Assembly (NCBI RefSeq): GCF_900143265.1
Contig: NZ_FRDJ01000001.1
Location: 372,001-436,000 of the forward strand
Direction: 5' to 3'
DNA from: Fervidobacterium gondwanense DSM 13020
GTDB lineage: Bacteria > Thermotogota > Thermotogae > Thermotogales > Fervidobacteriaceae
DNA: 64,000 bases
Under the pieces are notes generated by a model. That model did not search any database. It worked only from the letters and a program-made list of their open reading frames with translations, and was not told the DNA's origin. Of the stretch, positions 40,339-44,492 are shown in pieces (the first letter of the stretch is position 1; every line of letters begins with the position of its first letter). The translations under genes and the position numbers were made by a program.

Positions 40339-40884
40339 TCACCTCTCTTCATATCTCCTCATAGCTTTTAACTTTTTAATTAAAAGCAAGGATAAAATAA
40401 CAAAAGTGCTGAATAACGAGCCAAAAAACGCACCCGTTGAATCGATGATAACATCGTTTAGCGAGGAACCACGTGCATAGAAAATTTGGTTGTATTCGTC
40501 GAATATTGCATAAGTTGAGGGAACCGTGAACCCGAGCAAGGAAGAAATCAGAAAAGACTTTTTCCAAGTGTGGAAAGCAAGTGATATCAAGAACGCAAAA
40601 ACGAAATAAAGCCCGAAGTGAGCGCTCTTTCTAATAACCATCTCCGCAGGGATATTCTCAGTTCCAAACCACCATTGCTTCAATTTCCTCTCTACTTTCG
40701 TAAAAAGCGCTGTACTTGAGAAGTCGAAAATACTGTCAAGCTTCTTAATTACCCTGTACGCAAACTGCGACTGTCTCATCGATTCAACAGGACCTCTTGT
40801 TGAGAAATAGTATATCAAGCCAAGCCAAAATAGAACGATACAAAACAGAGATAAGGTTAATATTTTGAGTTTTTTATCCTTCAT
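40339..40884 (-). CDS. VanZ-like family membrane protein
   Basis: A 181-residue protein with four or five hydrophobic helices and the VanZ-like landmarks RKSAHFGLYFVFAFLISLAF and FDEYNQIFYARGSSLNDVIIDSTGAFFGSL, in which the acidic and Arg/Ser residues are conserved. VanZ proteins were named for teicoplanin resistance; the function of most is unknown and may concern cell-envelope phosphates. ATG 40884 is six bases after AGGAGTG. The stop lies three bases before the solute-binding protein start, so the two are likely co-translated. Confidence 0.85.
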   Translation of the reverse strand: MKDKKLKILTLSLFCIVLFWLGLIYYFSTRGPVESMRQSQFAYRVIKKLDSIFDFSSTALFTKVERKLKQWWFGTENIPAEMVIRKSAHFGLYFVFAFLISLAFHTWKKSFLISSLLGFTVPSTYAIFDEYNQIFYARGSSLNDVIIDSTGAFFGSLFSTFVILSLLLIKKLKAMRRYEER

Positions 40885-40906
40885 TAAGCACACTCCTATT
40901 ACTTTG

Positions 40907-41833
40907 TTATTGCTTTCTCACATACTCCAAACGCCTATTTTCAAAAATTATTTGTGCATAGTCATTTTCAAACAAGTAATTGCAATAAGCCTTAAGCGTT
41001 TGCAACAACAAAACATAGCCTGTAGCATCTAAAGAAAGAAAAAATTTCTCAGCAACATGAGAAACAACGTCATCGATTGTCCTTGGCACATCGAGATAAT
41101 CTATTATAGTATTTAATGTTTCTTTTACGACGTTTTTGTTCGATTCTACAAGTTTTAAGAATTCTTCTTTCGATTCATCACTCTCAAGATTGTATACTTC
41201 ACCGTGACTTGGGACTATAAAAGAGACATCGTTTTCAACCCATAATTTTAGACTGTCTAAGGTCTTCAGATGTTGAGCGACATCAACTAAAAAATATACT
41301 TTGTACTTCTGTATGGTCTGAGAAGAAACAATTGAGTCTGCTACAAAAAATATCCGCTTGTCTGGTAGATTTGTTAGAATGCCGATCATATCGAATGAAT
41401 GTCCCGGAAGTGGTATTATATTAACATTCAGCTCTTCGTTAGTGCCATAATCGATAATATCTGTGACTACGGAAGGCTTTGCAAGGAGGAACTTGTTGTC
41501 AATACCTTTAAACGGAAGTGCACCCCAAAGATAAGCGGGCTCAAGGACGGGATTTTCTATAAACGCGCTCTCGAGCTTTGTTGCAAAGATTCTGCTTTTG
41601 TACTTGCTCTGCAAGAAACTGTTTCCGCCGATGTGGTCTGCATGCGAGTGCGTGTTGATTATCGATACTTTCTTCACTGCAAGTTCTCCCAAAACCCTTG
41701 CTATTCTCTTCGCATGGTCCGGACTACTCCCCGTGTCGATCAATACAGCTTCATCGCCCTTTAGAATCACACCGACGTTCACTGGTGATTTTAGAACAAG
41801 GAAACTTTCAGCAAGTTTTGCAACTTCGAACAT
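40907..41833 (-). CDS. Metallo-beta-lactamase fold hydrolase
   Basis: A 308-residue MBL-fold protein. Metal ligands are in INTHSHADHIGGN (HxHxDH), LPGHSFDMIG, FVADSIVSS and PSHGEVYN, complete for a dinuclear centre. The C-terminal third (from about residue 220) is helical and may form a winged-helix-like accessory domain, with TIDDVVSHVAEKF. Substrate unknown; glyoxalase II-like or RNase-independent hydrolases share this pattern. ATG 41833 is preceded by AGGGGTTGAAAGT; the frame extension to 41881 is not supported. Confidence 0.87.
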   Translation of the reverse strand: MFEVAKLAESFLVLKSPVNVGVILKGDEAVLIDTGSSPDHAKRIARVLGELAVKKVSIINTHSHADHIGGNSFLQSKYKSRIFATKLESAFIENPVLEPAYLWGALPFKGIDNKFLLAKPSVVTDIIDYGTNEELNVNIIPLPGHSFDMIGILTNLPDKRIFFVADSIVSSQTIQKYKVYFLVDVAQHLKTLDSLKLWVENDVSFIVPSHGEVYNLESDESKEEFLKLVESNKNVVKETLNTIIDYLDVPRTIDDVVSHVAEKFFLSLDATGYVLLLQTLKAYCNYLFENDYAQIIFENRRLEYVRKQ

Positions 41834-41884
41834 ACTTTCAACCCCTAATCTTGTCCTTGCATTTATTTTATCACAACTCACCAG

Positions 41885-43000
41885 TTAAATGATTTTCTTG
41901 CTTTTCAAAATGAAGTAACCGCTGAGGAACGTATTGTTCAATCCATTTCCAACAGCTGCCAACTTCTCGTATTTTCTTTGATATTCCTCCCAAAATAGCG
42001 AACATTGAACAGAATCGATTATCTTGAGATTATTCAAAGATATACCAATTTTTGAAATAGGATAGTTTCTGTACAGCTTTTTTGCAATATCTTCCACAAC
42101 CTTTGATAAAAGAAAAAAGTCATTCGTGTGAACTGCTAAGTTGTGCGAAAGAGAAAACGCGCCAAACCTGTCCTTTATATACAGCGCCACATTCTTCGCA
42201 CCGTACCTTCCTCGAATCAATTTGGAATAAATCCCAAAGAGAAGATAGTTAAAAACTGCATAAAGTTCTTCAAATGATTTTATTTCCTTATCCAGCGAGA
42301 GCGAATGTCCGATGCTTTTGGGCGGAACATGTTTAAAAAACTCTGGTTCCGTATATTCTTTCAACACCAGTTCGCGAAGTTTTTCAGAAATTCCACCATT
42401 TTTCAAAAAATCTTCCAAAGTTTCTATTCCAATCTCTTTAAAAACTTTTTGGCTCTTTTTACCTACTCCCGGTATATCTTTTATCGGCAATTGCTTTGCA
42501 AATTCATTCAAATCATCTACAACCAAAAACCCGTCTGGCTTAGCGATTTCACATGCGCTTTTTGCTATCACAGGATTAGGTCCAACACCAATAGTACAAC
42601 TCAACCCTAACCTCAGCTTTATTTCATCCTTTAAAATTTTCAACTTCTCAACACCGTCTTCAAAAACATCAACAGCAATGTACACTTCATCTATGCTCGC
42701 TTCCTTATACACCGGAAAGAAATTTTCAATGATCTCCAAAAGCTTGAGCGTTGTGAATTCGTACTGCGGATAATCAGCCTTTACGAACAAAATGTTCTTG
42801 CACAACTTTTTAGCTTCTGAATAAATCATCCCTGTCTTCACGCCGTGAATCTTCGCCAAATAATTCGCACTCAAAACGATAGGGTTCTTTCCTCCTCCAA
42901 CAACAGCAAGGGGCCTTCTTTTGAGAATCGGATTTTTTACCCCCTCAACGGACGCAAAGTAAGAATCCATATCTACAAGTGCAACCTTTCGATATATCAC
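41885..43000 (-). CDS. dinB: Y-family DNA polymerase (DNA polymerase IV)
   Basis: A 371-residue translesion polymerase. The catalytic motifs are VALVDMDSYFASVEG (steric-gate region and Asp), YKEASIDEVYIAV (catalytic Asp-Glu) and CTIGVGPNPVIAKSACEIAKPDG. A helix-hairpin-helix segment follows (IKDIPGVGKKSQKVFKEIGI), then a C-terminal little-finger domain with PKSIGHSLSLDKEI. No clear beta-clamp peptide (QLsLF-like) is visible at the C-terminus, which ends KSKKII. GTG 43000 follows AGGGGGTG; GTG 43009 overlaps that site. The promoter is overlaid by GTATAC repeats, suggesting regulated, perhaps damage-responsive, expression. Confidence 0.9.
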   Translation of the reverse strand: MIYRKVALVDMDSYFASVEGVKNPILKRRPLAVVGGGKNPIVLSANYLAKIHGVKTGMIYSEAKKLCKNILFVKADYPQYEFTTLKLLEIIENFFPVYKEASIDEVYIAVDVFEDGVEKLKILKDEIKLRLGLSCTIGVGPNPVIAKSACEIAKPDGFLVVDDLNEFAKQLPIKDIPGVGKKSQKVFKEIGIETLEDFLKNGGISEKLRELVLKEYTEPEFFKHVPPKSIGHSLSLDKEIKSFEELYAVFNYLLFGIYSKLIRGRYGAKNVALYIKDRFGAFSLSHNLAVHTNDFFLLSKVVEDIAKKLYRNYPISKIGISLNNLKIIDSVQCSLFWEEYQRKYEKLAAVGNGLNNTFLSGYFILKSKKII

Positions 43001-43023
43001 ACGGCACACCCCCTATTTAATTT

Positions 43024-43068
43024 TAGTATACAAAAGTATATTATATACTAATGTATAGTATACAACAA
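43024..43068 (-). promoter_or_regulatory. dinB promoter with overlapping GTATAC-type repeats (likely operator)
   Basis: On the minus strand TTGTTG (43068-43063), 17 bases, then TATAAT (43045-43040). The direct repeat TAGTATACAA occurs at 43024-43033 and 43056-43065, 32 bases apart. The 13-bp palindrome GTATATTATATAC (43036-43048) covers the -10. Confidence 0.65.
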
Positions 43069-43169
43069 AAGCGGTTGAAAAATCAAGTTTCACACAAAAA
43101 TCAAGATGCAAGATTTTGTGAATTTTCATTGAATATTTCCAATAAATTCCCGAGAGTGCCAAAATTGTG

Positions 43170-43178
43170 TGGTAGAAT
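43170..43178 (+). promoter_or_regulatory. Extended -10 element for murD
   Basis: TGGTAGAAT lies about 50 bases upstream of the murD start; no convincing -35 is present. Confidence 0.45.
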
Positions 43179-43229
43179 ATTCGAGGAAGAATTTTAAGAC
43201 AACAATAAGCTAAAAAGGAGTGGTATGCT

Positions 43230-44492
43230 TTGAAATACGCGCTTTTAGGATTTGGATTAAGCAACAAATACGCAGCGAAGTATTTGAAATCACTTGGTGA
43301 AGAGATATTTGTAAGTGAAGGTGGAAAGCTTTCCGAAGAAGACAAAAAATACTTAGAGGAAGCAGGCATACCATACGAAGAAGGCACAAACAGTGAACGC
43401 CTATTGGAAGCCGATGTTATACTAACCAGCCCAAGCGTTCCGTACAACCACCCAATCCTTATGAAAGCCAAAGAACTGAAAAAGCACGTTGACACGGAAA
43501 TCACATATTTCACAAAAAACCTTGACTGGAATCCGAAGATAATCGCAGTTACTGGCTCTGTTGGAAAGAGCACGACCGTATCGATGATCAATCACCTCAT
43601 ATCAAAGAGCGCAACTTCACAACTTTCTGGAAATATAGGGATTCCCATCGCGCAAGTATTACTAGAAGGCAAAAAGCCAGAATACTTAGTCATAGAAATA
43701 AGCAGCTTCCAGCTCTACTGGGCTGAGTATTTTAAACCGCACGTGGCAGTCATTACAAACATATACCCCAACCACCTTGACTGGCACCCTTCGATGGAAC
43801 ACTACGCAGAATGTAAGTTGAAAATAGCAAAATTCCAAGACAACGAGGATCATTTCGTATACAACCCAAAAGATATGGAGACGTTCAAGAGATTAGCCTT
43901 AGTTCAAGCAAAGCGTGTCCCGTTCACCGTCGATTTCAAATTCGAAGAGATACCGTTCCACATACGCACGAAACAGAACGTTGAGAATATTGCTGCAGCA
44001 AAGACTGTTTTGAAAGTTTTGAATCTCCCATTCAACATGAATATGCTCGAAGATTTTGTACCGCTACCACACAGGATGGAATACTGCGGCACGATAAACG
44101 GTGCGCACTACTACAACGATTCAAAAGCGACGAACGCAGCCGCTGTCGTTAAGGCGCTCGAGAATTTCGACAGCAACCTCTACCTCATAATCGCTGGAAA
44201 GGGTAAGAACGAAGACTACACCCAACTTGCTGATACTATCAAACAAAAATGCAAACACGTTGCAATAGTGGGTCCAATCTCAGATCAAGTTGAACCGTAC
44301 TTAAAAGATAGGGGTATAGATTATAGAAGGTATAAAAGCATCGAGGAAGCCGTTGTAGAGATTTCTAAGATAGCAGGAGAAGGTGATTTCGTGCTCCTTG
44401 GACCAGCGGGTGCGAGCTACGATGCTTACAAGAACTTCGAAGAACGCGGAGAACATTTCAAGTCTATTGTGAAGAAATTGATTGGAAGCTAA
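43230..44492 (+). CDS. murD: UDP-N-acetylmuramoylalanine--D-glutamate ligase
   Basis: A 420-residue Mur ligase that adds D-Glu to UDP-MurNAc-L-Ala in peptidoglycan synthesis. The N-terminal Rossmann-like domain (YALLGFGLSNKYAAKYL) is followed by the ATP P-loop IIAVTGSVGKSTTVSMI, in which SVGKST replaces the usual TNGKTT, and VIEISSFQLYWAEYFKPH. NIYPNHLDWHPSMEHYAECK follows. The third domain has PHRMEYCGTINGAHYYNDSKATNAAA. TTG 43230 lies nine bases after AAGGAGTGG. It is not in a dcw cluster here but alone, followed by the glucanotransferase gene. Confidence 0.92.
   Translation: MKYALLGFGLSNKYAAKYLKSLGEEIFVSEGGKLSEEDKKYLEEAGIPYEEGTNSERLLEADVILTSPSVPYNHPILMKAKELKKHVDTEITYFTKNLDWNPKIIAVTGSVGKSTTVSMINHLISKSATSQLSGNIGIPIAQVLLEGKKPEYLVIEISSFQLYWAEYFKPHVAVITNIYPNHLDWHPSMEHYAECKLKIAKFQDNEDHFVYNPKDMETFKRLALVQAKRVPFTVDFKFEEIPFHIRTKQNVENIAAAKTVLKVLNLPFNMNMLEDFVPLPHRMEYCGTINGAHYYNDSKATNAAAVVKALENFDSNLYLIIAGKGKNEDYTQLADTIKQKCKHVAIVGPISDQVEPYLKDRGIDYRRYKSIEEAVVEISKIAGEGDFVLLGPAGASYDAYKNFEERGEHFKSIVKKLIGS

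Follow-up and report, generated by a model that had tools for sequence, protein, structure and literature searches.

The stretch of DNA analysed here (the window, 64,000 nucleotides from Fervidobacterium gondwanense DSM 13020, whose genome, designated G000, is 2.15 Mb) contains dinB, which encodes a translesion polymerase, and a murD-like gene that starts at nt 43230 and runs in the opposite direction. GTATAC-type repeats overlap the dinB promoter in the space between the two genes, which raises the question of whether they form the operator of a repressor and, if so, which regulator reads it.

Palindromic boxes at the dinB promoter

The initial annotation divided the repeats into two copies of TAGTATACAA flanking a 13-bp palindrome, GTATATTATATAC. 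These strings were indeed present, at nt 43024–43033 and 43056–43065 and at nt 43036–43048, respectively, but the division into units was wrong, as they turned out to be pieces of another palindromic unit, TATAC-N4-GTATA, of which two perfect copies were located 17 bp apart (boxes A and B, Table 1). The 13-mer joins the right arm of box A to the left arm of box B across three bases, and was rejected as an operator since it represents the facing arms of the two boxes. Similarly, TAGTATACAA was rejected as a unit, with 7 matches in the genome (4 + 3) versus 6 (3 + 3) for the reversed control; in whole-window shuffles it was rare, with a mean of 0.17 and at least two matches in one of 100 shuffles, and GTATATNATATAC had a mean of 0.01. 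TATAC-N4-GTATA had two exact matches in the 64 kb, both at the dinB promoter, versus a shuffle mean of 0.03. None of the 100 whole-window shuffles contained two or more matches, and not even one box was found in 5000 shuffles of the intergenic stretch (nt 43010–43229).

Table 1. Coordinates of the dinB promoter region, the neighbouring genes, and the sigma-like gene
Feature	Position	Strand	Description
Box A	43027..43040	.	TATACAAAAGTATA, exact TATAC-N4-GTATA; downstream of the probable start site
Box B	43044..43057	.	TATACTAATGTATA, exact TATAC-N4-GTATA; across the probable start site
Lone extra GTATAC	43058..43063	.	Adjoins box B and overlaps the probable -10; lacks a partner arm
Probable -10 of dinB, TATACT	43057..43062	-	Conserved in f1 orthologues
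Probable -35 of dinB, TTGATT	43081..43086	-	18 bp from the TATACT -10
Alternative -10, TATAAT	43040..43045	-	With -35 TTGTTG at 43068-43063, 17 bp; outside the conserved position of the orthologues
dinB	41885..43009	-	Y-family DNA polymerase, 374 aa; PF00817 E=1.1e-35, PF11799, PF11798
Metallo-beta-lactamase-fold gene	40907..41881	-	Immediately follows dinB; a shared operon is possible, judging by spacing
VanZ-like gene	40339..40893	-	Possibly in the same operon as dinB, judging by spacing
Sigma-like gene	L178:3159-3569 (G000:C1:107158)		Orthologues L215-L232; adjoins an AAA ATPase gene in G000

A promoter of the form TTGATT/TTGACT/TTGACA-18-TATACT was the best call in six of the nine dinB orthologues of family f1 (G000, G001, G002, G004, G009, and G013); G003 had the same promoter with a spacer of 19 bp, while in G007 and G008 the 18-bp version was the second call. 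The scan returned one promoter at the G000 dinB versus 1.4 on average in shuffles, and, since this count is not above that of the shuffles, the support for the conserved promoter is its conservation. With TATACT as the -10, the start site falls within box B, and box A follows a short way downstream. The 13-mer had been thought to cover the -10; it does contain a perfect TATAAT, which may serve as one, but the orthologues indicate that the -10 of dinB is probably elsewhere. The metallo-beta-lactamase-fold and VanZ-like genes are packed against dinB (nt 40339–41881) and may share its operator.

Conservation of the box at dinB and other genes

Within 250 bp upstream of dinB, a box with at most one mismatch was found in all nine f1 orthologues (six exact) and in three of the five from family f2 (one exact), and in none of the four from outside the order. 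Exact boxes were present in seven of the 18 dinB stretches versus a mean of 0.01 in dinucleotide shuffles, which ignore genome relatedness, and six of the nine f1 promoters had a further box, with no more than one mismatch, 15–17 bp from the first. The initial annotation had proposed a multi-site repressor-type operator on dinB and had regarded absence of the motif from orthologous dinB promoters as evidence to the contrary; the conservation in f1, the two tandem palindromes over the promoter, and the occurrence of the box at other damage-type genes agree with the proposal. As judged from these sequences, TATAC-N4-GTATA is a well-supported candidate operator on dinB.

In nine genomes, the exact 14-mer occurred 43 times and its reversed control 40 times; there was thus no genome-wide enrichment, and true sites can be told only by their conservation. 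Seven exact boxes were found in G000: two at dinB, one at rsmH, one at a gene for a sigma-like protein, two inside ORFs, and one intergenic (L136:1501–1514; G000:C1:26502) before a dehydrogenase-like gene. One-mismatch sites of G000, represented by 20 stretches among the matches listed, fell mostly within ORFs, and no recognisable repair gene accompanied them.

Genes of family TIGR03916 ("putative DNA modification/repair radical SAM protein"), which we take to be the family of COG4277, scored above the cut-off in 10 of 61 genomes, G000 not being one of them. Their promoters carried the box in all nine f1 genomes, eight exact and the ninth with one mismatch, and the tenth gene, from outside the order, had none; the eight exact boxes in ten promoters compare with a mean of 0 in dinucleotide shuffles, which again ignore genome relatedness. 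The COG1573-COG4277 repair pair is listed among the SOS genes of Bacteroidetes, Verrucomicrobia, and Alphaproteobacteria in a previous study (PMC8565304).

The sigma-like protein is 110–136 aa in length and resembles region 2 only of sigma-70 (E=2.3e-4 and 5.9e-7). Its panel consisted of 26 of the 39 genomes with a match, L233, L239, L242, and L244 being left out as lying outside the order or as fragments. A box of at most one mismatch was located within 250 bp upstream in 13 of the 16 f1 genomes (11 exact). In G015, a second copy of the gene also had an exact box, approximately 75 bp before its match. No box lay within 250 bp of the f2 and f3 copies (0/10); exact boxes of the copies in G034 and G028 were farther upstream. 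Degenerate extra copies of the gene were observed in G007 and G008.

In front of the rsmH-ftsL-ftsI division operon, in which ftsL and ftsI were named by sequence reading, an exact box was present in all ten genomes of genera g1 and g2, a one-mismatch box in two of six genomes from other f1 genera, and a box of at most one mismatch in seven of eight (two exact) from f3, the T. maritima-like family, whereas none was found in the seven f2 genomes. This panel consisted of 31 of 36 genomes, those without a locus, except G000, being left out. A 17-mer, ATACTATACWTWAGTAT, derived from orthologous dinB sites, led to the rsmH sites and was itself rejected, with 38 matches at three mismatches in G000 versus 44 for the control. 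The f2 rsmH stretches (L246, L247, L250, L252, L259, and L269) share another element, similar to TGTAAACATgAGATTAC.

At one mismatch or fewer, the reversed control matched 5 of 26 sigma-like, 2 of 31 rsmH, 1 of 10 TIGR03916, and 0 of 18 dinB stretches. In nearly all promoters called in g1 and g2 for dinB, TIGR03916, and the sigma-like gene, the box lay at or just after the -10 (0–9 bp), and the same was true of most of the others.

LexA as the candidate reader

LexA was detected above the Pfam cut-off in 54 of the 61 genomes. The G000 protein matched PF01726 (E=2.5e-19), PF00717 (E=9.5e-28), and TIGR00498 (E=1.6e-54), and thus possesses both the DNA-binding and the self-cleavage domain. Other features of a LexA operator were also found, namely a palindrome covering a translesion polymerase promoter, with two exact boxes in G000 and a box in every f1 orthologue, and, in the relatives, the same site at a further DNA-repair gene, TIGR03916. 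The recognition helix was read in 44 loci: all 37 within the order had TPRG and were one residue shorter than the seven outside it, which had SSPSG (f5), ASPRG or SSPRG (f8 and f11), or SPRAA (f9). An f3 LexA (L028, G031) matched PDB chain 3k2z without a difference over 102 residues; this chain is described as the LexA of T. maritima (PMC6182141).

The lexA and recA genes usually belong to the LexA regulon, although this is usual rather than strictly defining, and here neither was included. No box was found in the 28 recA upstream stretches, from a panel of 28 of 45 genomes (L192, L195, and every recA genome that lacked a locus being left out), and none of at most one mismatch in the 9-kb stretch of the G000 lexA operon; both promoters were thus rejected as targets. 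The recA gene sits behind other genes in an operon, and lexA is located behind gyrA-like and archease-like genes. The LexA of T. maritima is cited as not autoregulated in PMC3789691.

Comparison with known systems revealed both likeness and difference. The Gram-positive (B. subtilis-type) LexA box is GAAC-N4-GTTC. It shares with the Thermotogales box the geometry of two arms of 4–5 bp around 4 bp (ATAC-N4-GTAT in the latter) and the location over promoters of dinB-type genes; the arms differ, being CGAAC/GTTCG versus TATAC/GTATA, and by reading boxes A and B lack GAAC/GTTC arms, while recA and lexA were without the box in the stretches examined here. Petrotoga miotherma, of the same phylum and with a LexA-type regulator, has a differing motif, GANT-N6-GANNAC, which is not an N4 palindrome, according to PMC3789691, which cites Mazon 2006; the f5 LexA proteins, from two class-level relatives that may or may not be kin of Petrotoga, have SSPSG in place of TPRG. 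The Leptospira box, TTTGCTATACAAA, is likewise AT-rich and contains TATAC, with different arms and spacing; recA is reported as its target and lexA as not autoregulated (PMC3789691). Another SOS-type network, which includes dinB and the COG1573-COG4277 pair, differs in its motif and in its regulator, which is no homologue of LexA. The literature search found no TATAC-N4-GTATA-type motif for Thermotogales; Mazon et al. 2006 may contain relevant boxes. The repeats had been described initially as not matching the LexA boxes of Firmicutes or Proteobacteria; they are unlike the boxes of other phyla, but most likely constitute the LexA box of Thermotogales nonetheless.

Judging by the sequence evidence, LexA is probably the reader of the box, and with about the same probability the dinB promoter carries tandem TATAC-N4-GTATA operators bound by a dimeric repressor, most likely the Thermotogales LexA. 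The box is shared by dinB, TIGR03916, the rsmH operon, and the sigma-like gene, and is therefore most likely part of an SOS switch. The dimeric repressor, most likely LexA, would bind boxes A and B, and its presence on box B at the start site and on box A just downstream would block RNA polymerase; after DNA damage, RecA would trigger the self-cleavage of LexA, turning dinB on. We infer LexA binding, repression, and damage induction at the box.

The division operon and alternative readings

At rsmH, the start of the box was 105–109 bp upstream of the start of the proximal -10 in 16 of 17 sequences from f1 and f3, and 113 bp upstream in G010, with the proximal promoter picked by eye among the calls; in G006 and G014 no proximal promoter was called. 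The distance from box to gene varied, and the intervening sequence was without obvious conservation (f1 and f3; L179, L245-L273). The fixed spacing, about ten helical turns, points to either action at a distance or the involvement of another factor, and plain promoter blocking is no explanation for it. Two systems with look-alike boxes, one in which LexA serves dinB, TIGR03916, and the sigma-like gene and one in which another factor serves rsmH, would account for this spacing as compared with the 0–9 bp elsewhere, for a TTTTAC flank to the box that is conserved at rsmH, and for the different distribution in f2 (3/5 at dinB, 0/7 at rsmH). This arrangement appears rather unlikely, as the 14-bp core is identical and co-occurs in the same genomes.

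Still less probable is an operator of the same damage-type gene set with a reader other than LexA, such as a GntR-, XRE-, or WYL-family protein. Some GntR-family operators typically have TTGTATACAA-like cores, and the lack of a box at recA and lexA would also fit such a reader, but dinB and TIGR03916 make up a gene set of the SOS type, LexA is found throughout the order and has a recognition helix peculiar to it, and the three neighbours examined (murD-like, metallo-beta-lactamase-fold, and VanZ-like) are not regulators. That there is no operator, the palindromes arising by chance in AT-rich promoters with TATACT -10 boxes, is highly improbable: -10 hexamers do supply TATAC in several sites and genome-wide the box occurs no more often than its reverse, but exact boxes at dinB and TIGR03916 far exceed the shuffle means, and the box lies apart from the -10 at both TIGR03916 and the sigma-like gene.

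Returning to LexA as the reader, a wider picture is conceivable, though on balance doubtful, in which Thermotogales possess an SOS circuit with its own TATAC-N4-GTATA operator and without recA and lexA, linking damage to translesion synthesis, radical-SAM repair, a sigma-like protein with region 2 only, and rsmH-ftsL-ftsI with the repressor some ten helical turns upstream. If the reading of the boxes as LexA operators is correct, it would define the SOS box for a thermophile order that includes model hyperthermophiles, provide a natural case of the LexA DNA code changing along with a recognition turn shorter by one residue, and predict that both the division operon and an unstudied sigma-like gene are under damage control.

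The surroundings of the sigma-like gene also showed a recurrent arrangement. The PHROGs database had no family for DUF1659 and DUF2922 proteins, and literature searches on the two and on SigO/RsoA returned nothing useful. In several f1 genomes, DUF1659- and DUF2922-type genes, themselves preceded by boxes, lie ahead of the gene, and in Thermosipho-like genomes (L317:9407-9938, L312:4956-6617, and L300:7213-8399) a DUF2922 gene, sometimes with DUF1659, is followed by the sigma-like gene, with boxes before the set and before the sigma-like gene.
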